Source: Ianthella basta
Lineage: Eukaryota; Porifera; Demospongiae; Verongiida; Ianthellidae
Direction: 5' to 3'
Length of the DNA: 64,000 nt
Assembly (NCBI GenBank): GCA_964019415.1
Contig: OZ025875.1
Location: forward strand, 3,878,411-3,942,410
Shown here: positions 836 to 36,400 of the stretch, piece by piece
Position numbering within the stretch: the stretch's first letter is position 1
Layout: each line of letters starts with the position of its first letter
The notes under the pieces: model-generated
Databases searched by the model: none
Seen by the model: only the letters and a program-made list of their open reading frames with translations
What the model was told of the DNA's origin: nothing
Made by a program: the position numbers and the translations under genes

Positions 836-3800
836 CAGTTGTGTACACTATTAGCACAGCATACACAGTGATCTTAGCAGCTGCTGCCTAGTTTGTGTAC
901 CTTCTATAGCGTCAACAGTTTATTCTTGCCTAATTAACAATTCTTGCATGTAGCATGTACAGAACATGTACACAGGTACAGTACTTTATCAGAGTGGCCC
1001 ATGTAACCACAAGTGTTCTCCTGCAGTTTAGCTTATAGTGGTAGAGCAATCTGGTTGTCTCATTGCTCCATGGCCTCTGATGCAATTGTGTGTGTGTGTT
1101 GCTTCATGCCCATGGAGCGGAACTACTGCTGTTCCTGAATTTTTGTGGATAGAGGGATTTTGATCCCTCACGGGTTATCCCAGTATTGCACTGAACTCTG
1201 GGTGTAGCTCATCCATCCCCTCAGGGGATACCAGAAAGGGAATGATACGGTCATTCTGTGGAGTACCATGCTTCTGCATTCAGGGGTACATCTGAGATCA
1301 GAAGCAATCTGGAATTACCATTGTAGATAGCAATGGTCCTTAGTGGGTATGTACATAATACTGTTCTCGCATTTGTCTGTTAACAGTGGCTTTTGAATAC
1401 TTCAAACATTTTATATTATGTGTAGCTGCCTTTTAGTAGTCTCTGATTATGGATATGTTGACTTCATTCTGACATTGCTTTATTATCGAACTTGTGAATT
1501 CAGGTACCGTTGCAGGTTGATTTGCCTAAAATCAAACCTGCCCACATCGAGATCCTATTAGGGCGTTCACCCTACACGTCAAACTGCTTTTGAAGTGGTT
1601 TGAAACCAATTACAGTAGATGTGTTCACATTTGTGCCATAATTGATTTAGCCCAACCAATGTAGACTTAACTCATCTCGCGATGTGAGTTTAAACCGGTT
1701 TGGCTCTGGCAATTGACACCATGGTGATAGCTTGAACAAATGAACGAATGAATCTTTTTGTGATGATTTGCAGTACCAATAGCGGATTTTTGAAGTCAAG
1801 TTTGGCAAACTGATTCTGGCAAACCTGTTTGGAACTGGTTTCACTGAGAACACCTTGAATGGTGAAATCACAGCCATGTCATATAGGTTGCCCCGGTATT
1901 GCACCCACCTCCAGGAGTGGCCCATCCCCTTTGGGGGACACAAGAGCTGAAGGGAAAAGCATTGAATACAACTGAGTCAGTATCCTATACATAGTGTATA
2001 CATTTGAAGTGGGAGCAATCACAGCATCTACAATACAACTGTGTATTCTTACGCCTTTAATACAGTAGTTGGGATGGTATTATGTGTATTGACACAAGGT
2101 TATTTTTACGTAAGATGAACGAGTCAGTTGTAACTGTGATAAATCTACTGAAAGTCACGACTCGGAAGAAATGTTGAAAAGAAAGGGAAAATTGGCACCA
2201 GGTGGCAGCTGAACCCAGGACAACTTATGCCCTAACGCGGGGTTTCAGCAGCTCAAGCCAACCAACCAGGCCGGAACAATTCGCCCTTTTTTTTACTCCT
2301 TATAGGCTAGTTCCGAGCGATGGAATGGTCCAACTAACCTTTGCAGGTGTGCCGCTAACTGCTTCCACTTAGAACCTGCGTACAACAAGCCAGTATGGAA
2401 TGATGACAAGGTTCCACTAACCTGAACAGGTGGGCCGCTTACTGCTGCCACTTATCAACCCAGTACTGTGCTCCTATTCTAATTTTACGTAAGATGAACG
2501 AGTTGGTTGTAACTGTGATAAGTCTAGTGAAAGTCACGACCTGGAAGAAATGTTGGTATGAAAGGGAATTGTTCCAACATTTCTTCTGAGTTGTGACTTT
2601 CATTAGACATATCACACGATGCAAGGTTATGTATACAATGTATAGTACAGTACATGCATATAATTAGCAAACCATAAGGTTTGTGTTTAGGACTTGTTCA
2701 AAGTGAGAGAGGAGCAACTACTATCTATCGCTTCATGGCCTCTTGGCTAAGATCAAGTAGAAATAACTGTTCTTAACAGTGTAACAACTGTTACGTTTCC
2801 TTCGGGAAACAAGTTGTTCCTCAATTTTTGTACCTTGAAGGATGTACAAAGCTTGCTTTGTCTCTTTTGTGGGTTGCCCCGGTATTGCACCTACCTCCGG
2901 GAGTGGCCCATCCCCTTCGGGGACACAAGATCTTAAGAGAAAAGTGAAGCAAACAAGAGGAGAATATTTAATGTGTATTTTAATTGTGTTGGGAATCTGT
3001 GTGAATGGTATCCCATAAATATGAAACATCTCTCATAAATTGTCAGCCACACCAGAAGCTGCAACACAATCAATCAATCAACCAATGCACATGAGGGTAT
3101 TATCTCCCATGTGGGAGGTCAGCCTAAATACTTACAACAGGAGTTTCTAGAAAATAATTACGTACACTGCAATTTAAATTAATAATGATAAGTATAATTT
3201 ATGTCATGAAACATTGATTATGTCAGAATACATAGTGAAAAATAGGAAGATCTAGAAATTAATGTCATAACTCAGTCATTATAAAGTTAAGCAAAATTAT
3301 TACTCCGCCTCATTCTGGGTCTCTCTCGAGGGTGCTTTCCTGGATCTTCACCATCATACACTATCTTCATCACTCTACCGCTGCTCATCTCTAATCTTTG
3401 CTTCCACTTCTGCTGCCATCTATTTATCAGATCCAAAACTCCCTCCTGCCTCAATTTGCCCCTAAGATCCACATTCCTTATTCTATCTACCTTAGACATC
3501 CCCTCTATCCATTGTAGCACTCTCATTTGCGTAGCCTGTATTCTTCCTTTATGTCTTGCTTGCAACACCCATGCTTCACACCCATATGTCAATGTGGGAA
3601 TCACCGTAGCATTCACCCCCCTCAATTTTGTCCCCTTTGTCTATTCCTTCCTTCCCAGCACTGTGCTTCCAATTGCCCCAACCATCCTTGACACCATTCC
3701 TACTCTCTGCTCCACTTCACTGTCCATACTCACATCACTACTGATCATTGTCCTGAGGTACTTCGTTTCCTTTACTCGTTCCACTTCCTCACCCTTAACT

Positions 3801-6800
3801 TTGACACACCAGAAGCTGCAACACAACTGTGCATAATTATTATTCTTACACTTTTAATACAGTAGTTGGGATGGTATTACGTGTATTGATGCAAAGTTAT
3901 GTATACAATGTATAGTACAGTACATGCATATAATTAGCGAACCATAAGGTTTGTGTGTAGGACTTGTTCAAAGTGAGAGAGGAGCAACTACTATCCATCG
4001 CTTCATGGCCTCTTGGCTAAGATCAAGTAGAAATAACTGTTCTTAACAGTGTAACAACTGTTATGTTTCCTTCGGGAAACAAGTTGTTCCTAAATTTTTG
4101 TACCTTGAAGGATGTACAAAGCTTGCTTTGTCTCCTTTGCGGGTTGCCCCGGTATTGCACCCACCTCCGGGAGTGGCCCATCCTCTTTGGGGACACAAGA
4201 TCTTAAGAGAAAAGTGAAACATACAAGAGAATAATTTATGTGTATTTTAGTTGTGTTGGGAATCCGCGAAACTGGGATCCAATGAATATAATGTTTCTCT
4301 TTCGTTCATGTACATTGTGTGTGTATATATATATATAATGTGTCAGCCACACCACCAGCTGCAACACAATGGTGCATATTATTCTTACGCCTTTAATACA
4401 GTTGTTGGGATAGTATTATGTGTATTGACGCAAGGTTATTTTTACGTAAAATGAACGAGTCAGTTGTAACTGTGATAAGTCTAATGAAAGTCATGACTCG
4501 GAAGAAATGTTGAAAAGAAAGGGAAAATTGGCACCAGCTGGCAGCCGAACCCAGGACAACTTACGCCCTAACGCAGGATTTCAGCAGCCCAAGCCAACCA
4601 ACCAGGCCGGAACAAGTCACCCTTTCTCTCCTTATAGGCTAGTTCCAAACAATGGAATGGTCCAACTAACCTTTGCAGGTGTGCCGCTAACTGCTGGCAC
4701 TTAGAACCTGCGTACAACAAGTGAGTACAGAATGATGACAAGGTTCCACTAACCTGAACAGGTGGGCCGCTTACTGCTGCTACTTATCAACCCAGTACTG
4801 TGCTCATATTCTAATTTTACGTAAGATGAACGAGTTGGTTGTAACTGTGATAAGTCTAATGAAAGTCAAGACTTGGAAGAAATGTTGGTATGAAAGGGAA
4901 TTGTTCCGGCCTGGTTGGTTGGCTTGGGCTGCGTTAGGGCATAAGTTGTCCTGGGTTCAGCTGCCACCTGGTGCCAATTTTCCCTTTCTTTCCAACATTT
5001 CTTCTGAGTTGTGACTTTCATTAGATCGATGCAAGGTTATGTATACAATGTATAGTACAGTACATGCATATAATTAGCAAACCATAAGGTTTGTGTGTAG
5101 GACTTGTTCAAAGTGAGAGAGGAGCAACTAGTATCCATCGCTTCATGGCCTCTTGGCTAAGATCAAGTAGAAATAACTGTTCTTAACAGTGTAACAACTT
5201 CATCCAAGTTCGTTCGCACTAGCCAAAATTTCACAAGTTATCCAGACGTTTCGGCAGCTTTCAGCCACCTTCATCAGTGAATGACAAAATACAGCACTCC
5301 TATAGTTTATATATAAATGTTAGTGACAGGTGATGAAATGTGGTGACAGTTGATGATGTGACCATGAATAACGTTAAAGTAACAATTTAACAGTCAATGA
5401 ATTTTGTTAGGCAGTAACAGTAGAGATCCAATAGTAATCTACTCTAGGAGGGCAGTGTACACCTCAGGCAAGGTTCCCTTCTCCCTATTCAGTGCATCCG
5501 GGTTCCGTTGTATATGCCAGCTCTCCAATAGGCAGCGTGTGGTGGCATATGGGTGACAGTCAATTACTTCTGACTTGGTGAGATCCACCAGATGACCTGT
5601 TGCGAGGGTGTGTTCTGTGGTGTGTTTCAAAAGTGTAACAACTGTTACGTTTCCTTCGGGAAACAAGTTGTTCCTGAATTTTTGTACCTTGAAGGATGTA
5701 CAAAGCTTGCTTTGTCTCCTTCGCGGGTTGCCCTGGTATTGCACCCACCTCCGGGAGTGGCCCATCCCCTTTGGGGACACAAGAACTTAAGAGGAATGTG
5801 AAGCATACAAGAACAAAAATTAATGTGTATTTTGTTGTGTTGTGAATTTGTGTCATTGGTATCCGATGAATACAACATCTCTACTTTAATATTTTTAATG
5901 TGTATTTTGTTGTGTTGGGAATCCGGGAAACTGGGATCCAATGAATATAATGTTTCTCTTTCATTCATGTACATTGTGTGTGTATATATATATATATAAT
6001 GTGTCAGCCACACCACCAGCTGCAACACAATGGTGCATATTATTCTTACGCCTTTAATACAGTTGTTGGGATAGTATTATGTGTATTGACGCAAGGTTAT
6101 TTTTACGTAAAATGAACGAGTCAGTTGTAACTGTGATAAGTCTAATGAAAGTCATGACTCGGAAGAAATGTTGAAAAGAAAGGGAAAATTGGCACCAGGT
6201 GGCAGCCGAACCCAGGACAACTTACGCCCTAACGCAGGGTTTCAGCAGCCCAAGCCAACCAACCAGGCCGGAACAAGTCACCCTTTCTCTCCTTATAGGC
6301 TAGTTCCAAACAATGGAATGGTCCAACTAACCTTTGCAGGTGTGCCGCTAACTGCTGCCACTTAGAACCTGCATACAACAAGTCAGTACAGAATGATGAC
6401 AAGGTTCCACTAACCTGAACAGGTGGGCCGCTTACTGCTGCCACTTATCAACCCAGTACTGTGCTCCTACTCTAATTTTACGTAAGATGAACGAGTTGGT
6501 TGTAACTGTGATAAGTCTAATGAAAGTCATGACTCGGAAGTAATGTTGGTATGAAAGGGAATTGTTCCGGCCTGGTTGGTTGGCTTGGGCTGCGTTAGGG
6601 CATAAGTTGTCCTGGGTTCAGCTGCCACCTGGTGCCAATTTTCCCTTTCTTTCCAACATTTCTTCTGAGTTGTGACTTTCATTAGATCGATGCAAGGTTA
6701 TGTATACAATGTATAGTACAGTACATGCATATAATTAGCAAACCATAAGGTTTGTGTGTAGGACTTGTTCAAAGTGAGAGAGGAGCAACTAGTATCCATC

Positions 6801-9800
6801 GCTTCATGGCCTCTTGGCTAAGATCAAGTAGAAATAACTGTTCTTAACAGTGTAACAACTTCATCCAAGTTCGTTCGCACTAGCCAAAATTTCACAAGTT
6901 ATCCAGACGTTTCGGCAGCTTTCAGCCACCTTCATCAGTGAATGACAAAATACAGCACTCCTATAGTTTATATATAAATGTTAGTGACAGGTGATGAAAT
7001 GTGGTGACAGTTGATGATGTGACCATGAATAACGTTAAAGTAACAATTTAACAGTCAATGAATTTTGTTAGGCAGTAACAGTAGAGATCCAATAGTAATC
7101 TACTCTAGGAGGGCAGTGTACACCTCAGGCAAGGTTCCCTTCTCCCTATTCAGTGCATCCGGGTTCCGTTGTATATGCCAGCTCTCCAATAGGCAGCGTG
7201 TGGTGGCATATGGGTGACAGTCAATTACTTCTGACTTGGTGAGATCCACCAGATGACCTGTTGCGAGGGTGTGTTCTGTGGTGTGTTTCAAAAGTGTAAC
7301 AACTGTTACGTTTCCTTCGGGAAACAAGTTGTTCCTGAATTTTTGTACCTTGAAGGATGTACAAAGCTTGCTTTGTCTCCTTCGCGGGTTGCCCTGGTAT
7401 TGCACCCACCTCCGGGAGTGGCCCATCCCCTTTGGGGACACAAGAACTTAAGAGGAATGTGAAGCATACAAGAACAAAAATTAATGTGTATTTTGTTGTG
7501 TTGTGAATTTGTGTCATTGGTATCCGATGAATACAACATCTCTACTTTAATATTTTTAATGTGTATTTTGTTGTGTTGGGAATCCGGGAAACTGGGATCC
7601 AATGAATATAATGTTTCTCTTTCATTCATGTACATTGTGTGTGTATATATATATATATAATGTGTCAGCCACACCACCAGCTGCAACACAATGGTGCATA
7701 TTATTCTTACGCCTTTAATACAGTTGTTGGGATAGTATTATGTGTATTGACGCAAGGTTATTTTTACGTAAAATGAACGAGTCAGTTGTAACTGTGATAA
7801 GTCTAATGAAAGTCATGACTCGGAAGAAATGTTGAAAAGAAAGGGAAAATTGGCACCAGGTGGCAGCCGAACCCAGGACAACTTACGCCCTAACGCAGGG
7901 TTTCAGCAGCCCAAGCCAACCAACCAGGCCGGAACAAGTCACCCTTTCTCTCCTTATAGGCTAGCTCCAAACAATGGAATGGTCCAACTAACCTTTGCAG
8001 GTGTGCCGCTAACTGCTGCCACTTAGAACCTGCGTACAACAAGTCAGTACGGAATGATAACAAGGTTCCACTAACCTGAACAGGTGGGCCGCTTACTGCT
8101 ACCTATCAACCCAGTACTGTGCTCATATTCTAATTTTACGTAAGATGAACGAGTTGGTTGTAACTGTGATAAGTCTAGTGAAAGTCAAGACTTGGAAGAA
8201 ATGTTGGTATGAAAGGGAATTGTTCCGGCCTGGTTGGTTGGCTTGGGCTGCTGAAACCCCGCGTTAGGACGTAAGTTGTCCTGGGTTCAGCTGCCACCTG
8301 GTGCCTATATTTCCTTTTTTCCCAACATTTCTTCCAAGTTGTGACTTTCATTAGACTTATCAATGCAAGGCTATGTATACAATGTATAGTACAGTACATG
8401 CATATAATTAGCGAACCATAAGGTTTGTGTTTAGGACTTGTTCAAAGTGAGAGAGGAGCAATTACTATCCATCGCTTCATGGCCTCTTGGCTAAGATCAA
8501 GTAGAAATAACTGTTCTTAACAGTGTAACAACTGTTACGTTTCCTTCGGGAAACAAGTTGTTCCTAAATTTTTGTACCTTAAAGGATGTACAAAGCTTGC
8601 TTTGTCTCCTTTGCGGGTTGCCCCGGTATTGCACCTACCTCCGGGAGTGGCCCATCCCCTTTGGGGACACAAGAACTTAAGAGGAATGTGAAGCATACAA
8701 GAACAAAAATGGCTGTGTATTTTAGTTGTGTTGGGAATCTGTGTCATTGATATCCGATGAATACAACATCTCTACTTTAATATTTTTAATGTGTATTTTG
8801 TTGTGTTGGGAATCCGGGAAACTGGGATCCAATGAATATAATGTTTCTCTTTCATTCATGTACATTGTGTGTGTATATATATATATAATGTGTCAGCCAC
8901 ACCACCAGCTGCAACACAATGGTGCATATTATTCTTACGCCTTTAATACAGTTGTTGGGATAGTATTATGTGTATTGATGCAAGGTTATTTTTACGTAAA
9001 ATGAACGAGTCAGTTGTAACTGTGATAAGTCTAATGAAAGTCATGACTCGGAAGAAATGTTGAAAAGAAAGGGAAAATTGGCACCAGCTGGCAGCCGAAC
9101 CCAGGACAACTTACGCCCTAACGCAGGGTTTCAGCAGCCCAAGCCAACCAACCAGGCAGGAACAAGTCACCCTTTCTCTCCTTATAGGCTAGCTCCAAAC
9201 AATGGAATGGTCCAACTAACCTTTGCAGGTGTGCCGCTAACTGCTGCCACTTAGAACCTGCGTACAACAAGTCAGTACGGAATGATGACAAGGTTCCACT
9301 AACCTGAACGGGCGAGCCGCTTACTGCTGCCACTTATCAACCCGGTACTGTGCTCCTACTCTAATTTTACGTAAGATGAACGAGTTGGTTGTAACTGTGA
9401 TAAGTCTAATGAAAGTCAAGACTTGGAAGAAATGTTGGTATGAAAGGGAATTGTTCCGGCCTGGTTGGTTGGCTTGGGCTGCTGAAACCCCCGCGTTAGG
9501 GCGTAAGTTGTCCTGGGTTCAGCTGCCACCTGGTGCCAATTTCCCCTTTTTTCCCAACATTTCTTCCAAGTCGTGACTTTCATTAGACTTATCAATGCAA
9601 AGTTATGTATACAATGTATAGTACAGTACATGCATATAATTAGCAAACCATAAGGTTTGTGTGTAGGACTTGTTCAAAGTGAGAGAGGAGCAACTACTAT
9701 CCATCGCTTCATGGCCTCTTGGCTAAGATCAAGTAGAAATAACTGTTCTTAACAGTGTAACAACTGTTACGTTTCCTTCGGGGAAACAAGTTGTTCCTCA

Positions 9801-12800
9801 ATTTTTGTACCTTGATGGATATACAAAGCTTGCTTTGTCTCCTTCGCGGGTTGCCCCGGTATTGCACCTACCTCTGGGAGTGGCCCATCCCCTTTGGGGA
9901 TACAAGAGGTTAAGGGAAAAGTGAAGCATACAAGAGGAGAATATTTGTGTATTTTGGTTGTGTTTGGAATCTGTGCGAATGGTATCCCTTGAATGTAACA
10001 TCTGTCCTTCGTTCATGTGCATTGTGTGTATATATATATATAAATTGTCAGCCACACCAGAAGCTGCAACACAATCAATCAATCAATCAATGCACATGAG
10101 GGTTTTATCTCCCATGTGGAGGTCGGCCTAAATACTTACAACAGGAGTTTCTAGAAAATAATGTCATAACTCAGTTATTATAAAGTTAAGCGAAATTATT
10201 ACTCCACCTCATTCTGGGTCTTCCTCGAGGGTGCTTTCCTGGAACCTCACCATCATACACTATCTTCGTCACTCTACTGCTGCTCAACTCCTCTAATCTT
10301 TGTTTCCACTTCTGCTGTCTTCTATTTACCAGATCCAAAACTCCCTCCTGTCTCAATCTGCCCCTAAGATCCACGTTCCTTATTCTATCTACCCTTGACA
10401 CCCCCTCTATCCATCTTAACACTCTCATTTGCATAGCCTATATTCTTCCTTTATGTCTTGCTTGCAACACCCATGCTTCACACCCATAAGTCAATGTGGG
10501 AATCACTGTAGCATTCACCACCCTCAATTTTGATCCCTTTGTCAATTCCTTCCCAGCACTGTGCTTCCAATTGCCCCAGCCATCCTCGACGCCATTCCTA
10601 CTCTCTGCTCCGCCTCACTGTCCATACTCACATCACTACTGATCATTGTCCTGAGGTACTTCGTTTCCTTTACTTGTTCCACTTCCTCACCCTTAACTTT
10701 GACACACCAGAAGCTGCAGCACAACTGTGCATAATAATTATTCTTACACCTTTAATACAGTAGTTGAGATGGTATTACGTATTGATGCAAGGCTATGTAT
10801 ACAATGTATAGTGCAGTACATGCATATAATTAGCAAACCATAAGGTTTGTGCGTAGGACTTGTTCAAAGTGAGAGAGGAGCAACTACTATCCATCGCTTC
10901 ATGGCCTCTTGGCTAAGATCAAGTAGAAATAACTGTTCTTAACAGTGTAACAACTGTTACGTTTCCTTCGGGAAACAAGTTGTTCCTAAATTTTTGTACC
11001 TTGAAGGATGTACAAAGCTTGCTTTGTCTCCTTTGCGGGTTGCCCTGGTATTGCACCCACCTCCGGGAGTGGCCCATCCCCTTTGGGGACACAAGAGCTT
11101 AAGAGGAATGTGAAGCGTACAAGAACAAAAATGACTGTGTATTTTGTTGTGTTGTGAATCTGTGTCATTGGTATCTGATGAATACAACATCTCTACTTTG
11201 TTCATGTGCATTGTGTGCATGTATATAAGTTGTCAGCCACACCAGAAGCTGCAACTTACACAACTGTGCATATTATTCTTACGCCTTTAATACAGTAGTT
11301 GAGATGGTATTGATGGATGTATACAATGTATACAACAACATATTATTCTTACACTTTTAATACAGTAGTTGGGATGGTATTGATGGATGTATACAATGTA
11401 AACAACAACATATTATTCTTACGCCTTTAATACAGTAGTTGGGATGGTATTACGTGTATTGATGCAAAGTTATATATACAATGTATAGTACAGTACATGC
11501 ATATAATTAGCAAACCATAAGGTTTGTGTGTAGGACTTGTTCAAAGTGAGAGAGTAGCAACTACTAGCCATCGCTTCATGGCCTCTTGGCTAAGATCAAG
11601 TAGAAATAACTGTTCTTAACAGTGTAACAACTGTTACGTTTCCTTCGGGAAACAAGTTGTTCCTAAATTTTTGTATCTTGAAGGATGTACAAAGCTTGCT
11701 TTGTCTCCTTTGCGGGTTGCCCCGGTATTGCACCCACCTCCGGGAGTGGCCCATCCCCTACGGGGACACAAGAGCTTAAGAGAAAACTGAAGCATACAAG
11801 AGGAGAATATGTGTATTTTTGTTGCGTTGAGAATCTGTGCGACTGGTATCTCATGAATATAATAACATTTTTCCTTCATTTATGTGCATTGTGTATATAC
11901 ATACAGTGCAAGTTACAATATACACCACTAATCTAAAGTAAATAATATAAATAAATAAATAAATAAATAACTCCCAGAGGGGTTTGGTGCCCCTCATGAA
12001 CATGTGCTAGGTATAGCTTTGAAGTATGGGAGATTTTAAGACTTTTAAATGAGACAGAGTTTTTAATTAGGCCACCACATGCATTCCTAGATGAAAATGA
12101 CCGCCACCACCACCACCACTCGGTGCAAGTTACAATGCATGCATTCACTCTAGAAAAAACACCACCACCACCACCACACAGTGCAAGTTACAATATTGCA
12201 GCCACCACCACCTGTGCCAGTAGAGTATCTGCGCTAGTTCGTCATAGAAAAAGACCACCAGCGCAGGTTACGGCTGGTCAGAACCTGCACCGCCGCCATT
12301 GGAGTGCACGCTGCAGCAAGCAAATGTAACTTGCCTAAGGGCATGCCATTGAATTTCTTCCCATGCACCCTCAATTCAATGGCATGCCCTTAGGCAAGTT
12401 ACATTTGCTTGCTGCAGCGTGCACTCCAATGGCGGCAGTGCAGGTTCTGACTGGCTGTAACTTGCGCTGGTGGTCTTTTTCTTCAGCCATTGAGCGCATT
12501 TACTTTCTGGCACATGTGGTGGTGCGAATGGTGCATGTGCTGGCCTGGGGCCACTGTAACTTGCACTCGTGGTCTTTTTCTATGACCAGCTAGCACAGAT
12601 ACTCTACTGGCACATGTGGTGGTGGCTACTGTAACTTGCACTAGTGGTGGTCTTTTTCTATGACCACCTAGCGCAGATACTCTACTGGCACATGTGGTGG
12701 TGGCTACTGTAACTTGCACTGGTGGTGGTCTTTTTCTATGACCAACTAGCGCAGATACTCTACTGGCACAGGTGGTGGTGGCTGAGATATTGTAACTTGC

Positions 12801-15800
12801 ACTGTGTCATGGTGGTAGTGGTGTTTTTTCTAGAGTGAATGCATGCATTGTAACTTGCACCGAGTGGTGGTATATATATATAAATTGTCAGCCACATCAG
12901 AAGCTGCAACACAATCAATCAATCAATCAATCAATCAATGCACATGAGGGTATTATCTCCCATGTGGGAGGTCGGCCTAAATACTTACAACAGGAGTTTC
13001 TAGAAAATAATGTCATAACTCAGTTATTAAAAAGTTAAGCAAAATTATTACTCCACCTCCTTCTGGGTCTCTCTCGAGGGTGCTTTCCTGGAACCTCACC
13101 ATCATACACTATCTTCGTCACTCTACCGCTGCTCATCTCCTGTAATCTTTGTTTCCACTTCTGCTGCCATCTATTTACCAGATCCAAAACTCCCTCCTGT
13201 CTCAATTAGCCCCTAAGATCCACGTTCCTTATTCTATCTACCCTTGACATCCCCTCTATCCATTGTAGCACTCTCATTTGCGTAGCCTGTATTCTTCCTT
13301 TATGTCTTGCTTGCAACACCCATGCTTCACACCCATAAGTCAATGTGGGAATCACTGTAGCATTCACCACCCTCAATTTTGATCCCTTTGTCAATTCCTT
13401 CCTTCCCAGCACTGTGCTTCCAATTGCCCCAGCCATCCTCGACGCCATTCCTACTCTTTGCTCCACTTCACTGTCCATACTCACATCACTGCTGATCATT
13501 GTCCCGAGGTACTTCGTTTCCTTTACTTGTTCCACTTCCTCACCCTTAACTTTGACACACCAGAAGCTGCAGCACAACTGTGCATAATTATTATTCTTAC
13601 GCCTTTAATACAGTAGTTGAGATGGTATTACGTGTATTGATGGATGTATACAATGTATAGTACAGTACATGCATATAATTAGCAAACCATAAGGTTTGTG
13701 TGTAGGACTTGTTCAAAGTGAGAGAGGAGCAACTACTATCCATCGCTTCATGGCCTCTTGGCTAAGATCAAGTAGAAATAACTGTTCTTAACAGTGTAAC
13801 AACTGTTACGTTTCCTTCGGGAAACAAGTTGTTCCTAAATTTTTGTACTTTGAAGGATGTACAAAGCTTGCTTTGTCTCCTTCGTGGGTTGCCCCGGTAT
13901 TGCACCCACCTCCAGGAGTGGCCCATCCTCTTTGGGGACACAAGATCTTAAGAGAAAAGTGAAACATACAAGAGAATAATTTATGTGTATTTTAGTTGTG
14001 TTGGGAATCCGCGAAACTGGGATCCAATGAATATAATGTTTCTCTTTCGTTCATGTACATTGTGTGTGTATATATATGATGTGTCAGCCACACCACCAGC
14101 TGCAACACAATGGTGCATATTATTCTTACGCCTTTAATACAGTTGTTGGGATAGTATTATGTGTATTGATGCAAGGTTATTTTTTACGTAAGATGAACGA
14201 GTCAGTTGTAACTGTGATAAGTCTACTGAAAGTCATGACTCGGAAGTAATGTTGAAAAGAAAGGGAAATTTGGCACCAGCTGGCAGCCGAACCCAGGACA
14301 ACTTACGCCCTAACGTGGAGTTTCAGCAGCCCAAGCCAACCAACCAGGCCGGAACAATTCACTCTTTCTCTCTTTATAGGCTAGTTCTGAACGATGGAAT
14401 GGTCCAACTAACCTTTGCAGGTGTGCTGCTAACTGCTGCCACTTAGAACCTGCGTACAACAAGCCAGTACGGAATGATGACAAGGTTCCACTAACCTGAA
14501 CAGGTGGGCTCTTACTGCTGCCACTTATCAACCCGGTACTGTGCTCATATTCTAATTTTACGTAAGATGAATGAGTTGGTTGTAACTGTGACAAGTCTAA
14601 TGAAAGTCATGACCTGGACGAAATGTTGGTATGAAAGGGAATTGTTCCGGCCTGGTTGGTTGGCTTGGGCTGCTGAAACCCCGCTTTAGGGCGTAAGTTG
14701 TCCTGGGTTCAGCTGCCACCTGGTGCCAATTTTTCCTTTTTTTTCCCAACATTTCTTCCAAGTTGTGACTTTCATTAGATCGATGCAAGGTTATGTATAC
14801 AATGTATAGTACAGTACATGCATATAATTAGCAAACCATAAGGTTTGTGTGTAGGACTTGTTCAAAGTGAGAGAGGAGCAACTACTATCCATCGCTTCAT
14901 GGCCTCTTGGCTAAGATCAAGTAGAAATAACTGTTCTTAACAGTGTAACAACTGTTACGTTTCCTTCGGGAAACAAGTTGTTCCTCAATTTTTGTACCTT
15001 GAAGGATGTACAAAGCTTGCTTTGTCTCCTTTGCGGGTTGCCCCGGTATTGCACCTACCTCTGGGAGTGGCCCATCCCCTTTGGGGACACAAGAGCTTAA
15101 GGGAAAAGTGAAGCATACAAGAGGAGAATATTTGTGTATTTTGGTTGTGTTTGGAACCTGTGTGAATGGTATCCCTTGAATGTAACATCTCTCCTTCGTT
15201 CATGTGCATTGTGTGTACTAGCTGAATGCCCGCCCTTCGGGTGGGTTCCCAGCATATCGTTTGAAATGTGAACATTTAAACCAATCAGAACCGTCCATTT
15301 CGGCACCCTCCTCTGCTCCGGCGCCCAACGCAGGTGCTTCCAATGCCAGTGCTTCTGATGCAAAGCACTTCCAAATCTGGCTACTGAGGAATAGCTATAG
15401 ACGCTGCAGTTGCCGTTAGCTATAGAGTTGCACGCAGCTGACTCCTCTTCCACCATGAATCACCTTCTGCAAGGTCAAGCGTCTTGTATTGCCCTCCAAA
15501 TTATACAGAACTGACTCATGATGGCCCCTTTGAGCTGATTCTTGGTTGTTCTCTTGAGTTGACTCCTGGTTGGTCCTTTGAGATGACTCCCCTCGAGTTG
15601 GCTCCTGCTTTTCCCTGGAGCTGACTCCTGTGAGTGAAGGTTGAGTGATGGTCTTGGAGTTCTGACAGTTGTCGTCGATTCCTAAGAGCTCTCATCAACC
15701 TTGAATGTCTTGACTTCTTGGTTAGTCCGGTGTTGCCCTTAATGTTCGGCATATGCGCACTGCAACGGTTGCAAATTGCTTTGTTTGGAAGAAACGTATT

Positions 15801-18800
15801 ACGATGACGTCATGATATCATTGCGCAAGCCTAAACCCCGCATAACTTGTGCCCATCCTTTCGCCATCGAGCCGCTTTCACTCGCGTAACACGGCGCTTT
15901 CCGCTATATAGCTTATATCACCCACGGCCTTCTACATTGTGCTAAAACTATAGCAAAGAAGCCGTCGCACCATCTTCCCAGGAGGAGTTGTGTAACAAAG
16001 GAATTAGCTGCGAATTCCGTAATCTACTTCGCTTTCCTCCGTAAAACAAAAATGGCGTCCTATAGCAACGTATGGCGAGTTGGCGCAAAACCTTCATTTC
16101 GCAAGCTTTCGCAGGGAAACCCAGCCGAAGACACCCTCCGGATAGCGCTTCGACATTCGGACCGCGTTTGCTGCGAAGCCTCCGCATGGTTCCCGAGATT
16201 AGTGCGGACAAAAAATCGGCCTAGCTCCATTATAATAAGATATATATATAAATTGTCAGCCACATCAGAAGCTGCAACACAATCAATCAATCAATCAATG
16301 CACATGAGGGTATTATCTCCCATGTGGGAGGTCGGCCTAAATACTTACAACAGGAGTTTCTAGAAAATAATGTCATAACTCAGTTATTATACAGTTAAGC
16401 AAAATTATTACTCCACCTCATTCTGGGTCTTCCTCAAGGGTGCTTTCCTGGAACCTCGCCATCATACACTATCTTCGTCACTCTAACGCTGCTCATCTCC
16501 TCTAATCTTTGTTTCCACTTCTGCTGTCATCTATTTACCAGATCCAAAACTCCCTCCTGTCTCAATCTGCCCCTAAGATCCACGTTCCTTATTCTATCTA
16601 CCCTTGACATCCCCTCTATCCATTGTAACACTCTCATTTGTGTAGCCTGTATTCTTCCTTTATGTCTTGCTTGCAACACCCATGCTTCACACCCATATGT
16701 CAATGTGGGAATCACTGTAGCATTCACCACCCTCAATTTTGTCCCCTTTGTCAATTCCTTCCTTCCCAGCACTGTGCTTCCAATTGCCCCAGCCATCCTC
16801 GACGCCATTCCTACTCTCTGCTCCACTTCACTGTCCATACTCACATCACTACTGATCATTGTCCCGAGGTACTTCGTTTCCTTTACTTGTTCCACTTCCT
16901 CACCCTTAACTTTGACACACCAGAAGCTGCAACACAACTGTGCATAATTATTATTCTTACGCCTTTAATACAGTAGTTGAGATGGTATTACGTGTATTGA
17001 TGGATGTATACAATGTATAGTACAGTACATGCATATAATTAGCAAACCATAAGGTTTGTGTTTAGGACTTGTTCAAAGTGAGAGAGGAGCAACTACTATC
17101 CATCGCTTCATGGCCTCTTGGCTAAGATCAAGTAGAAATAACTGTTCTTAACAGTGTAACAACTGTTACGTTTCCTTCGGGAAACAAGTTGTTCCTCAAT
17201 TTTTGTACCTTGAAGGATGTACAAAGCTTGCTTTGTCTCCTTCGCGGGTTGCCCCGGTATTGCACCCACCTCCGGGAGTGGCCCATCATCCCCTTTGGGG
17301 ACACAAGAGCTTAAGAGGAATGTGAAGCATACAAGAACAAAAATGACTGTGTATTTTGTTGTGTTGTGAATCTGTGTCATTGGTATCTGATGAATGCAAC
17401 ATCTCTAACTTTGTTCATGTGCATTGTGTGCATGTATATAAGTTGTCAGCCACACCAGAAGCTGCAACTTACACAACTGTGCATATTATTCTTACGCCTT
17501 TAATACAGTAGTTGAGATGGTATTGATGGATGTATACAATGTATACAACAACATATTATTCTTACACTTTTAATACAGTAGTTGGGATGGTATTACGTGT
17601 ATTGATGCAAGGTTATGTATACAATGTATAGTACAGTACATGCATATAATTAGCAAACCATAAGGTTTGTGTGTAGGACTTGTTCAAAGTGAGAGAGGAG
17701 CAACTACTATCCATCGCTTCATGGCCTCTTGGCTAAGATCAAGTAGAAATAACTGTTCTTAACAGTGTAACAACTGTTACGTTTCCTTCGGGGAAACAAG
17801 TTGTTCCTCAATTTTTGTACTTTGAAGGATGTACGAAGCTTGCTTTGTCTCCTTTGCGGGTTGCCCCGGTATTGCACCTACCTTAAGAGAAAAGTGAAGC
17901 ATACAAGAGGAGAATAATTGATGTGTGTTTTGTTGTGTTGGTCCCGTTACTTGTACTCAGGAACCCCTGGTAGTAGAATTATTAGTTTGTTCTGTGCCCT
18001 TTTTTCTTTCTCCCCTCTCATCTCCTTCCCTTCTCCCCTACTCTCTCACCTCCCCTTCTCTCCTCACCTCTCCTCCCCTCTTATCTCTCTTATACCCCTC
18101 CACCTCTCTCTGTCCATAGGCTGGTGACAACTGTGATGTGTGTGAAGAGCCATGCACAAAACCACGTCCGCAAGGGTGTGGTCACACATGTCCCCGCCCT
18201 TGCCACCCTGGTGAGTCTTGTCGCTAGGCTTATCCCTATACACAGCACACCTCGCATTCCTGTATATTCATCACTGTGCATTGTATTAATGTCCTGATTT
18301 TTTTATGAATAAGGCCTCACTGCAAACTGTATAAATACCTTCCTCTAGTAGTGCTCTGGCTGGATGCAACTGCCTATGATTCTGTTTCTTTGCTTTTGTG
18401 CTAAGCCTCCTCCTCCATAGCAATGAATACAATATCCACATCCATGTAACTAGCTACTGTGCATGCGCTATGTGATTGTGCAGTGACCATACAAAGAAAC
18501 GTACATACACTGTGTATGACATGGTGAAAACTACGTAACTTCTGTGATCATGCCGGTTTATACCATAAGAGTATTAGGTTTTGTAGTGGTACTAAGAAAA
18601 TGCTTGTGAATTTAATAAGACATAGCTACGTAGCTACACTGTAGCTTACAAATGTCCAAAGAAGGAAACCTATAGATTTATCTTGCTTCTGTCCATGTGT
18701 CATGTAGTAGCTGATTCCTTTGATATGACATCATAGATAGCGTTAGCTGCTGGTCTGCTGCAGGGAAGAGTGCGAGCACCCTCTCGTTGGCTTCGCATCC

Positions 18801-21626: not shown

Positions 21627-22460
21627 TTAGGGGTGATGATGGCAGCCCCGCCCTCTTGGAAAGGGAGGGTGGGGCCTAAAGTGGTGATGGTGAGGGCCAT
21701 GAAAGCGATGGTGGTGTGGGTGTAGATGGGGTGGATGTGGGTGGTGTGGTGGGTGATGTGGTGGGTGGTGTGGTGGGTGATGTCGTGGGTGGTGTGGTGG
21801 GTGATGTGGTGGGTGGTGTGGTGGGTGATGTCGTGGGTGGTGTGGTGGGTGATGTGGGTGGTGTGGTGGGTGATGTGGGTGGTGTGGTGGGTGATGTGGG
21901 TGGTGTGGCGGTGGGTGGGGATGACCCCAAGCCCAGTGAGGTGGAGGATGGGGAAATGAAGGTGGATCTAGTGAGGATGTAGAAGTCTGTGTTTCTGACG
22001 AAGTAGTTTGTACAGGCTCTGTCACAGTAACCTGTTGAATGCCATCCGCCAACGTTGACAGAACATCAGCTAAATCAGGGGCCTGCTGGCTGGAGCATTC
22101 TGGAGAGCACTCTGCTGGAGTGTTTTCAACAGTAGGAGGGGCAGCACTTTTCCCATCTCCGCTGTTACCATCTTTCTCGTGGCGCTCCAGGATCTCCAGC
22201 AAGCTACCCAACTTGAAGTCCTTTGGATACCCCTCCACACCGCCCGTAGGCAAGGGATGGGTACTTCTACACAGCGGACACGACAGGCCGTGACCAACAC
22301 CGCCGCAGGAGAGCGGAATGTGGACCAGCTTGACGTTTTTCACGCATCTCATGCAGAAGCTGTGCTGACAGGGAAGTTCACGCGGGTCTCTGTATCTGTC
22401 AAGGCAGATTTTACACGTTAACTCTTCGGCCAATTTGGACTGCAAATCTAACGCGGCCAT
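21627..22460 (-). CDS. RING-finger protein with His/Pro-rich tail
   Basis: Single-exon gene of 277 residues, starting at the MAALDL methionine. The frame stays open nine codons further upstream, but this start lies closer to the RING. A C3HC4 RING occupies about residues 16-64 (CKIC, CQHSFCMRC, CPLC) and resembles the N-terminal RING of TRIM-type E3 ubiquitin ligases. A spacer rich in Ser, Thr and Glu follows. From about residue 175 to the end is a low-complexity tail of HHP/HPP repeats made by a near-perfect 15-24-nt tandem repeat. No B-box or coiled coil is visible. Likely an E3 ligase; the substrate is unknown, and the tail might bind metal. The start lies 146 bp from the divergent kinase gene. 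Confidence 0.8.
   Translation of the reverse strand: MAALDLQSKLAEELTCKICLDRYRDPRELPCQHSFCMRCVKNVKLVHIPLSCGGVGHGLSCPLCRSTHPLPTGGVEGYPKDFKLGSLLEILERHEKDGNSGDGKSAAPPTVENTPAECSPECSSQQAPDLADVLSTLADGIQQVTVTEPVQTTSSETQTSTSSLDPPSFPHPPPHWAWGHPHPPPHHPHHPPHHPHHPPHHPHHPPHHPRHHPPHHPPHHPPHHPRHHPPHHPPHHPPHHPHPPHLHPHHHRFHGPHHHHFRPHPPFPRGRGCHHHP
21720..21915. repeat. GGTGGTGTGGTGGGTGATGT coding minisatellite
   Basis: Tandem units of 15-24 bp encode the His/Pro tail of the RING protein. The G-rich strand (plus) is open in more than one frame purely because of the repeat. Confidence 0.85.
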
Positions 22461-22606
22461 TTTAATTTGCGGACAACGGAACAGCACGGCAATGGCAAAT
22501 GTGCGTTTATACCTTCTTGAGTCATTATTCCTCGCATTATTCCTACATTCCTGGACTGTGTCACCCCGGACGAAGGTGTACTGGACCGATCAATGGGTAA
22601 ACCAAG
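22461..22606. promoter_or_regulatory. Shared divergent promoter region (RING / kinase)
   Basis: 146 bp separate the start codons of the minus-strand RING gene and the plus-strand kinase gene, so both promoters must overlap or lie within each other's 5' regions. No TATA box at a suitable place. Confidence 0.5.
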
Positions 22607-24075
22607 ATGGCCGCTTCTCTGGAAGATTTCTTCCGTGGGCTCACTATCCAAGGTGTGACGGAAACAGGAGTGGAGATCGGCAGAGGCGCTTATGGCGTTG
22701 TAGTGGAAGTTAAGTGGATGGGGTTGACCTGCGCTGCCAAGCGGATTCACCCCGCCTTGGTCCCAGACATGAGGGGCCCAAATAAAGTGGTTCAGGGATT
22801 TTTGGACGAGTGCAGTACATGGGCCACGCTCAGGCATCCTCACATCGTCCAGTTCTTGGGTCTCTACTTCGACCAAAGCTCCCCGCTTCCCATCCTTGTT
22901 ATGGAGAAGATGAGCACCAGTCTGCGACGACTCCTAGAGCTGTATACGAAGGAACGCCTCTCCCTCTGCCACAAGATCAGTATCTTGCATCAAACTGCTC
23001 TGGGCCTGCTGTACCTCCACTGCAGTAACCCTCCTCTGGTACACCGGGACCTTACTGCTAACAACGTGTTGTTGGATGTTGTGAGCCTCACTGCCAAACT
23101 GACTGACTTTGGCATGGTGCGGGCGATGGATGTGGGCAGGTTGGGCACACTTACTGAAGCACCAGGTGTTAGTTCATACATGCCACCAGAGGCTTTCTGG
23201 AAACCGCCAAACTACTCCGTGAAACTTGACGTGTTCTCCTACGGTGTGTTGGTTATCCACACTGCTGTACACGATTGGCCAAATCCCCTCCCTGGCACAG
23301 ATTGTGACGCCGATGGCATGCTCAAGGCAATTAATGAAGTTGAAAGGAGACAGACGTACATCTCATCTCTATCAGACCTTGAGAGGGAGCTTTTCCTTCC
23401 CATCATTGTGCCATGCCTGCAGAACGTGCCTGATGCTAGGCCGGATATGCACCATTTGGTGGCCCACTTGGAGGATGTGAGAGATAGGCTGGGTGTCAGT
23501 GACTCGATGTCCATGCTGGAGGTGGAATTAGAGCGAGAACATATCGTAGGACAGCTTCAGATTGCTGCCGAGGGAAGGCACCAGCTGGAGCTGCAATGCA
23601 TGCAGCTAAAGGAACAGCTAGCACAACAGCACCAACAGCCACAGGTATACATGTGCATTTGTGCTGGCGTGCATGTATGTTACTGATGTGCACTGCACAT
23701 ATAGGGAGTTTCAACACAAAATTTAGTAACTATTTGTAAATGCATGTTTCCGCTCCTTCCAAACTTTAAGGTGATACCAGTAGTAGTGAAATTGCAGGCA
23801 TTCACACCATGCACATACTTCATATATGAATATATATTTTAATGCATGCAGGTATGATATTAAATTCACTATTGGCCTTTATGTTCACAGATTTCTTTTG
23901 CTCTGTCTCTCTCTCTTGGGCACAGGTAGGGCAGATTGCTGGGACAAAGAGACAACCTCTGATTTACATTGATCCCCCAAGCACTGCTGTCAGGATACCT
24001 GTCCCAGTGCCTCTGTCCAACCAGGTGAGGGAGGTGAAGAGAGCAGCAAGACGGTATCCCAACAAGAGCAACTGA
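22607..24075 (+). CDS. TKL-like protein kinase
   Basis: Exon 1 is 22607-23644 and exon 2 starts at 23926. Exon 2 either reads to TGA at 24073-24075 (395 aa) or leaves through the donor CAG|GTGAGG at 24024. Kinase features: glycine loop IGRGAYGVV (24-32), lysine K45 in CAAKRIH, HRDLTANN with catalytic D148 and N153, DFG at 167-169 (LTDFGMVR), an APE equivalent PPE (193-195), and helix-F D208. All catalytic residues are present, so activity is expected. HRDL-TANN and the overall look suit the tyrosine-kinase-like group; substrate specificity cannot be told. Residues about 300-346 form a Glu/Gln/Leu-rich coiled coil. The NHR exons at 26783-28503 might belong to the same gene through the 24024 donor. 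Confidence 0.8.
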
Positions 24076-33476: not shown

Positions 33477-36400
33477 CTAGTCACTGACATTTACAGTTAG
33501 TGCAGCGTTTGTGCACAGTGTTCCTCTCACTGACTCCACTAACTCCACCCGTATCTCCTGCATCTCCACTTCTGTAAGTAGTAGGTTCTTACTGAACCCA
33601 GCAGCCAGGGCTCGGCTAACTCTGGCACTGTAGCTTGCATTCACCTTCACCTTGACTACTAGAGCACAACTGGCTGCCTTCTCCAGCTGTGCACAGTCCT
33701 CTTCACTCAACCTCCCCTGAAGGTACAAAACACAACACAGGGGTACTGAGGTGACACATTACAAGAACAACAAACACTGCACTACTGGTATGGCTTCAGG
33801 GGTAGGTTGCTGATGGACACAAAATGGCTGTCCAACAGGCCCATGAGATGGGTGGGTTACATGCACCTACTTTGGGTGAAGTCCACATCTACACACACAT
33901 CTAATGACAACAATTAATGGGCACAGTGTTGACTTGCAGTCATTCTCCTCCATGTGTGTGCAGACACAATGCTGCTTGATTTATTACTGGACTTCACTAG
34001 CCAACAACCATGTGGTTGTTTTCATCAGTGGTGGTACAAAACAGAAAGTGACTCGCTTTGTATATGCTACGATGTATGGGAAATGGCGCTAATGTGAGTG
34101 ACAGCAGGTGAGGTGACAGGTGATGAATAAACTTAAGGGATAGGATGGGCAGAAATCAGGGAAGCATACAGGGTATAGAGGTGGTGTCTAACAGGAACAC
34201 AGAGTTGTACACTGGGGACAATGAGAAGTCTAACAGGAAAATAAAGAGTTGCATATACATTGGGGACAATGAGACTAGCAATGATGCAGCATATATGAAT
34301 AGGTGTACACTGTACATACCCATAGTGGGTACTCCACTGTGACACTGTCCAGGGGGGAGTCTCTGTGTGACAGTGACCGGATCACTGGAAGAGGATCGAT
34401 GTTATAGATGACAAGCACCCTCAACTGTGGCATGGTCTGGACACAAGTGGCCACAGCTGAAGATGGCTCACCACCGACTAATTGATCTAAGGTAGAAAAA
34501 CACAGCACTCATTGAGATCTGCATGACAGTGCACACAAGATTGAATGGGGTTGACCTTGAGGGGCTTCACAAACAGCAAGGACTGCTACACATTCACTTA
34601 CACTTGACACATGTACACCACTCCACTGAACTCCACTTAGTAGAATGGGGTGATTGGACATTGCTTTGACAAACACTCCATGCATTGCCTCAACATCAAA
34701 CTGTTGCTAAGCAACAGTAGTTGCCAAGTGACAGATGCAATATTACTACTCAGCATGTCCCCAAATGAGCAACACTGCATACACTGATTATGCACAACCG
34801 AACATTTTGAGGATGTAAGGGTGGCAATGGGAAGGGCAGTGCTTCCAATGTATGTGTATGTATGAGCCCAACCCATATATGTACATACCCCTATGTGGTA
34901 TAGCATAGTTAGAGGCATGTAGTGATGGGCTCACCTGTAACATCAAGATCTGCTATAGAACGGTTGTCTTTGACTCCACTTAGTACAGGGAGGAGTAGGG
35001 TGCTGTTACCACGCAGCATCAGTCTCTTCAGCTGACAGTGGACAACCTTCTTCTCCACCACACTGCAGTCACCCTGCACACATAACATACAGTGACAACA
35101 GTAAGAGAACAGATGGAGCATTCATACACTCAGGAAGTCAAACAAAGATAGAGGTCTAGCTATAGTCTCGTGTATAGCCAACAGCCTCCATTTTAATTGA
35201 TAATGTTATTGGTCGGGCAGAAAGGGTTTGGTGAACAGCCTATATTCCATTTTTGTACAGAGTGTGTGACCCCAATTAGTCACTTCCATTAGCCGAAACG
35301 TGCATCAATGCAACTGTTCCACATATACAGTAATTGACTTGCACACCTTAGAAGAGCTGAATTGGTGTTGTTCTGGTCGCACTTGCTTGGACAGCAGCAC
35401 TGCCACAGCTTTAGGTCTCCTGTGATACTGTACATTTTGAATGCGCCGCCGATGGAGATGCATGCATACTTCGTATCTGTGAATTCATTCATCCACTAAT
35501 TGCATCGTCTGTCTTCCATAGGGTTTCAGCAGGTATAATCTTCCCTACCCATGCAACACTGATGACATCAGCATATAAAATGGGGGCAGGAATATAATAG
35601 CGGTCGGCTACACGAGACTAAGGTCTAGTGTGGTCACTGAAAAAATTAATGTCCATGATGTAATGTGATGCATCTCAAACTGGTTCACACATTTCACCTC
35701 CGAGTTGGAGTAAAACGGCACATGTTATGCATACACTCAAACAACTCAAGTGTAGAAAGAAGTAGCATATTATAGGAGGAAGCCACACAGTGGATTCATG
35801 TAAACTGGTCCTTCAGAGTCCACACCACATAACTATATACCATGCAGGTGAACATGCACTACTTACTTCAATACCACTGTAGAAGGTAAGCTCCAACTTC
35901 TCCAATGGTCTATAGTCAAAGACCTCAGCCAGTGAATCTGAAGTGCAACTTCCTTCCACTCTCAGGTCCAATCTCTTTATTGACCCGGCAGCCTTAAATA
36001 GTGCTCTAGCATCTTTGTCCATGGGGGAAGGGGAACAAGGGAGAATGGAGGAACATAATAGAGACACATCTGACAGCTCTACACAAACTAAGGGAATACA
36101 GGGGAAATTAAGAGACAAATAGCAATTGTTGCCATGACAAGAGGTGATTGCATGTACGTACATTGTTACATTATATCATCCATTGCCACTTCTAAAGAGA
36201 CAATTGCAACAACTGATCATGAAGGAGTCACACTGACTCACACATGCACAACCTCCATACAACAGTGGACTACAGTAACAACCGGTGTGGTCCCATTCAC
36301 TCACTTTCAGTGGAGAACTGGTCCACACCTAGTGACAGTGACTGTAAAAGAGGATTGCACTGCACAACTGAACAAACATGATGGAAACTGGTGGGAGATA

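Follow-up and report, generated by a model that had tools for sequence, protein, structure and literature searches.

U2 genes of the sponge Ianthella basta with an altered branch-recognition segment in place of GUAGUA

Introduction

Can the U2 RNA of an animal's major spliceosome do without the sequence by which it reads the branch site? GUAGUA in animal U2 is treated as fixed, and is so regarded because it makes the branch helix. The question is raised by an array of U2-like genes in a stretch of 64,000 nt from the sponge Ianthella basta (this whole stretch is the window referred to below). A model's reading of the window, made from the letters alone and called here the sequence-only reading, had claimed that all copies of the array carry a different segment at this place, and that they might accordingly recognise a different branch sequence or represent a U2 paralogue outside the spliceosome. 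I consider below whether the copies are working U2 genes, whether a canonical U2 exists elsewhere in the genome, and what the introns of the animal have to say about the branch site.

U2 Genes in the Window and in the Genome

A cmscan search of the window with the Rfam model of U2 (RF00004, cut-off 46 bits) gave 12 matches above the gathering score, all on the plus strand, running from 2727 to 17886. Nine score 123–128 bits and one 94.7 bits; the remaining two, which an insertion interrupts, score 52 bits each. They are listed here in order, together with the features of the first copy that enter into the argument.

2663 to 2684, plus strand: PSE-like (promoter) element at −64 of the first copy
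2727 to 2916, plus strand: U2 copy, intact, 123.8 bits
2751 to 2772, plus strand: in the first copy, the region of the branch-site stem-loop (BSL), whose predicted loop AGAAAUA is at 2759 to 2765
2757 to 2772, plus strand: reported segment of the first copy, GUAGAAAUAACUGUUC, the altered branch-recognition element and the 3' side of the branch-site stem-loop
3997 to 4186, plus strand: U2 copy, intact, 126.2 bits
5137 to 5770, plus strand: U2 copy split by an insertion, with the repeat AGTGTAACAACT at 5188 to 5199 and 5632 to 5643, 52 bits
6798 to 7431, plus strand: another split U2 copy, with an insertion of the same kind, 52 bits
8471 to 8660, plus strand: U2 copy, intact, the top score of the window, 128.2 bits
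9703 to 9893, plus strand: U2 copy, intact, 125.1 bits
10893 to 11082, plus strand: U2 copy, intact, 123.7 bits
11570 to 11759, plus strand: U2 copy, intact, 125.8 bits
13742 to 13931, plus strand: U2 copy, intact, 124.3 bits
14891 to 15080, plus strand: U2 copy, intact, 123.3 bits
17102 to 17291, plus strand: U2 copy, intact, 127.2 bits
17713 to 17886, plus strand: U2 copy with a damaged 3' end (L004), 94.7 bits

The insertion in the two split copies measures 444 bases from repeat to repeat and lies at 5188–5643 and at 6849–7304, the latter site being placed from the spacing of the repeats. The repeat on both sides of the first insertion resembles the target-site duplication of a mobile element. 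In the spacers of the array (1980–15217) there are several repeat families, inverted repeats some 100–150 nt in length and MITE-like in appearance, and a tandemly repeated unit of 1661 nt. Open frames of about 180 amino acids in a spacer repeat (families D7, D9 and D10; 3291–3836 and 16399–16947) are perhaps a candidate retroelement remnant. The window also contains a frame for a RING finger and a His/Pro-rich repeat (21630–22589, minus strand), adjoined by a protein kinase frame (22604–23683, plus strand), and a frame with a NACHT domain (36300–38195, minus strand).

The eukaryotic assembly comprises 209 Mb in 96 contigs, and the window lies on the contig designated C8. A covariance search of the genome gave 19 matches, 17 of them above the cut-off, among the best 46 of 5001 candidates scored. 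They fall at three locations: the window array, C8:1349175-1350997, and a single gene on contig C12, which has the highest score of all the U2 copies (131.2 bits). Because this search scored the best candidates only, I also used a pattern with fixed flanks and a free recognition segment, GGCTAAGATCAAN{5,16}CTGTTCT. It has 17 matches, as against none for the reversed control, at three places on two contigs (12 in the window array, 4 at C8:1349193-1350854 and 1 at C12:3499475). All 17 of these U2 5' domains read GUAGAAAUAACUG and none is canonical, and no match with three or fewer mismatches to a canonical U2 26-mer occurs in the readable sequence of the 209 Mb. These counts concern the readable genome; N accounts for about 10.8 kb of 200 kb sampled.

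With a similar pattern, canonical U2 was met in three contigs from bins that are labelled bacterial; I take these as eukaryotic contamination and use them here as canonical controls. A search of viral contigs gave no match. The two controls of sufficient length score 172.1 and 131.6 bits. Since canonical controls were found and scored in this way, a canonical U2 in the readable genome should have been detected. The claim that GUAGUA, the hallmark of animal U2, is missing is borne out in 17 of 17 copies and beyond the window as well, and the abundant canonical U2 elsewhere that, together with a lack of expression, the sequence-only reading took as the mark of pseudogenes was sought and not encountered in the readable genome. 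Its suggestion of a paralogue outside the spliceosome is not supported, since no other U2 was found in the genome, and local sequencing error, which it had also raised, is set aside as very unlikely because the same variant stands in 17 copies on two contigs.

As a side observation, COX1 on the mitochondrial contig has 9 TGA codons, and trnR there precedes a frame read as nad4L, where ARAGORN places two tRNAs on the other strand. In the available part of the source, trnR and nad4L are a neighbour pair in demosponges (PMC10695373). By these features and by the PRPF8 protein described below, the genome would be that of an animal and probably of a sponge.

The Altered Segment and the Rest of the Molecule

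In the first copy, positions 2757–2772 read GTAGAAATAACTGTTC, with GATCAA directly 5' of them (2751–2756). Relative to canonical U2, GUAGUAU has become AGAAAUAA (in DNA letters, GTAGTAT has become AGAAATAA), a change of one insertion and three substitutions. In an alignment with the three canonical U2 sequences (L044 in full, L045 without its first 12 nt and L046 in its first part only), the change is confined to the stretch between GATCAAGT and CTGTTCTTA, neither of which varies, and in eight excised loci (L001–L008) the variant segment directly follows each occurrence of AAGATCAAGT. A segment identical in 17 of 17 copies is either under constraint or homogenised.

What surrounds the segment is ordinary U2, as the sequence-only reading had maintained. 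The intact copies are matched at full length with 123–131 bits. In each of the four copies viewed in Rfam alignment, two pairs of the molecule as a whole are non-standard, and in all four the Sm site and the 3' stem-loops are present, including the loop of stem IV. In stem IIa, one of six pairs is changed on both sides (A-U here, as against U-A or U-G), a covariation drawn from 6 sequences and reached by 27 of 500 shuffles. The U6-pairing stretch GGCTAAGATCAA is found in 17 copies, and its U6 partner has ACAGAGA and AGC. The altered RNA is U2 by structure and homology, without one animal hallmark.

The branch-site stem-loop with the loop AGAAAUA is predicted in a 69-nt fragment (z −2.5) and is not predicted in a 67-nt fragment beginning at the 5' end, which folds otherwise. 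As isolated hairpins, the variant piece of 22 nt and the canonical piece of 21 nt are alike unstable. The four lower-stem pairs that were tested never vary and are hence uninformative either way.

Conservation, Promoter and the Likeness to U12

Genes were compared with their flanks by means of one gene for each promoter class (3 of the 17). The RNA bodies of these three representatives are identical at 195, 192 and 190 of 198 positions (96–98.5%), the 110 nt upstream are 57–66% alike, and more distant flanks 50–59%. A U2-derived SINE or dispersed pseudogene family, with many scattered copies and decaying bodies, was rejected: the 5' domains matched exactly by the pattern number 17, confined to three places, and the three bodies have the identity just cited.

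The 22-mer ATTAG.AAACC.T.A..TTTGT, at −64, is kept in all three promoter classes; its score in U2, 21–22 of 22, is high by construction. The U12 gene matches it at 15 of 22 positions, at −63 (P 0.015, in the sense that 1.5% of random 110-nt stretches reach 15 of 22 at any position), and in the two U6 genes, at 12 of 22, there is no match. It has the appearance of a promoter element that the U2 and U12 genes have in common.

A search for U12 (RF00007) led to one locus, C15:6980686 (L009), a separate single gene with the usual reader, and on this ground the minor spliceosome is probably present. Both U6 and U12 retain their usual boxes. The window copies were also considered as U12 themselves and rejected as such, clan competition assigning them to RF00004. 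The sequence-only reading had seen in the segment a faint resemblance to U12, and this is true to the extent that AGAAAUAA is a subsequence of the genome's own U12 segment, AAGGAAAAUAA; the likeness is weak, as these letters can be arranged in 56 ways, 6 of which also fit. Derivation of the U2 segment from U12 by gene conversion, which would account for the containment, is the least probable of the explanations considered here, given those equally fitting arrangements and the mere one insertion and three substitutions that lead from the canonical segment to the variant.

Introns and the Search for a Branch Site

The introns came mainly from PRPF8 (contig C23), which is identical to the human protein at 2018 of 2239 positions. 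Spliced alignment gave 39 introns, the first of which was dropped as an end artefact. The 38 usable introns are all GT-AG, which the aligner favours, and have C/T-rich tracts. A scan for internal exons supplied 56 further predicted 3' splice-site tails with scores above 17, about one third of which may be false (at score 18, 48 exons in the real sequence as compared to 15 in its reversed control), and which were kept apart from the PRPF8 set. Other sources yielded less: 32 of 618 introns from a small gene finder had good flanks, a set not used further; sampling of 20 stretches of 10 kb gave few reliable genes; and short whole introns sought by pattern (13 matches, control 6, letters limited to 80) were left unused. 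At the 5' splice sites of PRPF8, the third intron base is G in 26 of 38 (GTGAG over GTAAG), and GTAAGT is rare in sampled DNA, itself partly N, with 108 instances as against 278 of its reverse.

Two of the 19 motifs tried in the two sets of sites stand out in the PRPF8 introns. URAC is raised, occurring in 11 of 38 as compared to 5.1 ± 2.1 in shuffles, and UUYAY is lowered, with 1 of 38 as compared to 6.8 ± 2.2. The two departures speak for a GUA core more than for either of the remaining registers, but they are not repeated in the 56 predicted sites, where URAC (13, shuffles 11.8) and UUYAY (15, shuffles 11.6) are unremarkable and UCAC is raised (21, shuffles 11.5). UUUAC occurs in 0 of 38 PRPF8 introns and 2 of 56 predicted sites, TNA is about as frequent in the PRPF8 introns as in their shuffles (28 of 38, shuffles 26.0), and in 4 of the 38 the stretch from −60 to −10 is devoid of A. 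Scoring of duplexes in 9 registers with two U2 loops (18 combinations) gave no consistent winner. Neither words downstream of GTRAGT nor words near the 3' ends of PRPF8 introns form a consensus, the latter being only C/T-rich, so that the comparison of branch motifs proposed in the sequence-only reading was made and brought no consensus to light.

Two motifs were counted genome-wide before a pyrimidine tract and CAGG; AUUUCAU and UAUUUAC were tried in the small sets only. ACTAAC was found 72 times (reversed control 90) and TCTAAC 37 times (reversed control 66). Rough expectations, based on 13 sites in 200 kb, come to 31 and underestimate the controls of 90 and 66, for which reason the reversed controls are preferred. 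With counts below those controls, a canonical consensus and a UUCUAAC-like one are both undetectable, and the latter, which the sequence-only reading had thought the altered RNA might favour, is not supported. The counts argue against a strong CUAAC-type consensus and not against a degenerate one of the mammalian kind, which is compatible with them because UACUAAC is itself rare in cattle, where 0.22% of introns use it as branch sequence according to the available part of the source (PMC8531310). In the same part, TNA is held by 90% of predicted cattle branch sites. Pyrimidine tract and branch signal are described as trading off between species, strong tracts going with weak branch signals, in what is available of PMC3033335, and in the accessible portion of a paper on introns of sponge ribosomal-protein genes (PMC3412847) the word branch occurs once, in the phylogenetic sense.

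How the Altered U2 Might Work

I consider it very probable, on the genomic evidence, that the variant copies are the animal's working major-spliceosome U2, the sole U2 found in the readable genome. In favour are the variant in 17 of 17 copies with invariant flanks, bodies better conserved than flanks, the promoter element and the retained boxes of U6 and U12. The RNA would be made from the shared PSE-like promoter, would join SF3A/SF3B and would work in splicing. For the reading of the branch site I propose, tentatively and with slightly less than even confidence, a weak and tolerant helix between U2 and the branch site, recognition resting mainly on proteins and the pyrimidine tract. The branch adenosine would be chosen mainly by SF3B, U2AF and the strong C/T-rich tract, and U2 would add a few base pairs, for which the likeliest partner is the GUAG core that it retains, two bases nearer the 5' side. 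PHF5A, which I take to be part of the branch-adenosine pocket, is identical to human at 100 of 108 positions. From the strong tracts and the conserved PHF5A it would follow, branch sites being degenerate as in other animals, that the element can be replaced so long as the stem-loop still forms; that stem-loop is handled by SF3B1 and Prp5, according to the available part of PMC8357632. Working genes and weak pairing taken together are the best explanation overall, and one I hold to be somewhat more probable than its negation. Against it are the URAC excess that is unrepeated, the duplex scoring that favours no register, a promoter unlike that of U6, and a stem-loop predicted in one fragment of two.

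Three other explanations have to be weighed. The copies may belong to a dead or repeat-like family, with the true canonical U2 outside the assembly or in stretches of N. The array does hold split and damaged copies, parts of the genome are N, and U2-derived SINEs occur in other animals. Yet there are just 17 copies at three places, undispersed; their bodies are far more similar than their flanks and the promoter element is kept; and it is the single gene on C12 that scores highest, at 131.2 bits. I consider this explanation very improbable. It is rather less improbable, though still unlikely, that the RNA has been recoded together with its target, the variant U2 reading a matching altered consensus: UUCUAAC (via GUAGAA), AUUUCAU (via AGAAAU) or UAUUUAC (via GAAAUA). 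A segment identical in all 17 copies, constrained or homogenised, would agree with this, and orthogonal pairs of U2 and branch site have been built in yeast, reportedly by Smith, Konarska and Query in 2009. The introns speak otherwise: TCTAAC falls short of its reversed control (37 against 66), UUYAY, contained in both AUUUCAU and UAUUUAC, is at 1 of 38 against 6.8 and 15 of 56 against 11.6, UUUAC is at 0 of 38 and 2 of 56, and no register wins in duplex scoring.

To the same low degree probable is that branch sites are of the ordinary degenerate animal kind and pair via the retained GUA core, the change in U2 being nearly neutral and splicing mammal-like. URAC at 11 of 38 against 5.1 agrees with this, and a mammal-like branch site would be barely visible in such counts, given the 0.22% for UACUAAC in cattle. 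TNA, however, hardly departs from its shuffles (28 of 38 against 26.0), as compared with the 90% of predicted cattle branch sites given in the available part of PMC8531310, ACTAAC is below its control (72 against 90), and the GUA core would be two bases nearer the U6-pairing stretch. To return to the account I prefer, of working genes and weak pairing, its broadest consequence seems to me evenly balanced: that the reader of U2 has been replaced across a whole animal gene family without a detectable matching branch consensus, and that pairing is dispensable or freely re-codable. If true, this would hold for sequence-specific pairing of U2 and branch site in the metazoan major spliceosome, and an animal naturally without GUAGUA would separate the share of base pairing in branch choice from the shares of SF3B, U2AF and the pyrimidine tract.

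Comparison with Known Systems

Metazoan snRNAs are said to be the subject of work by Marz, Kirsten and Stadler in 2008. Trypanosomatids are known to have a U2 that lacks GUAGUA, and in a literature search of partial coverage no report was found of an animal U2 without it. The sponge RNA is like canonical animal U2 (RF00004) in its full-length covariance match and in its U6-pairing stretch, stems I, IIa, III and IV and Sm site, and unlike it in having the variant without GUAGUA in 17 of 17 copies and one additional base between AAGU and CUGUUC. With U12 (RF00007) it shares an A-rich segment ending in AUAAC and a promoter-like element at the same position, but U12 is a separate single gene with the usual reader, and the U2 copies match RF00004.

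In Leishmania major, according to the available part of PMC4950102, U2 has UUAUAA in place of GUAGUA, so the element is replaced in both organisms. In contrast to the sponge, the trypanosomatid Sm site departs from the metazoan form, there is trans-splicing, and transcription is by Pol III; here the remainder of U2 is ordinary and the PRPF8 introns are ordinary GT-AG. The larvacean tunicate Fritillaria borealis is likewise an animal with unusual splicing signals, but the branch recognition sequence of its U2 is strictly conserved, as stated in the available part of PMC13326754. The engineered orthogonal U2 of budding yeast has, like that of the sponge, a changed branch-reading segment. It is a second copy with a matching substrate, whereas the sponge U2 is natural, the sole U2 found and one for which no matching consensus was detected, and it would be the natural counterpart to the engineered RNA.
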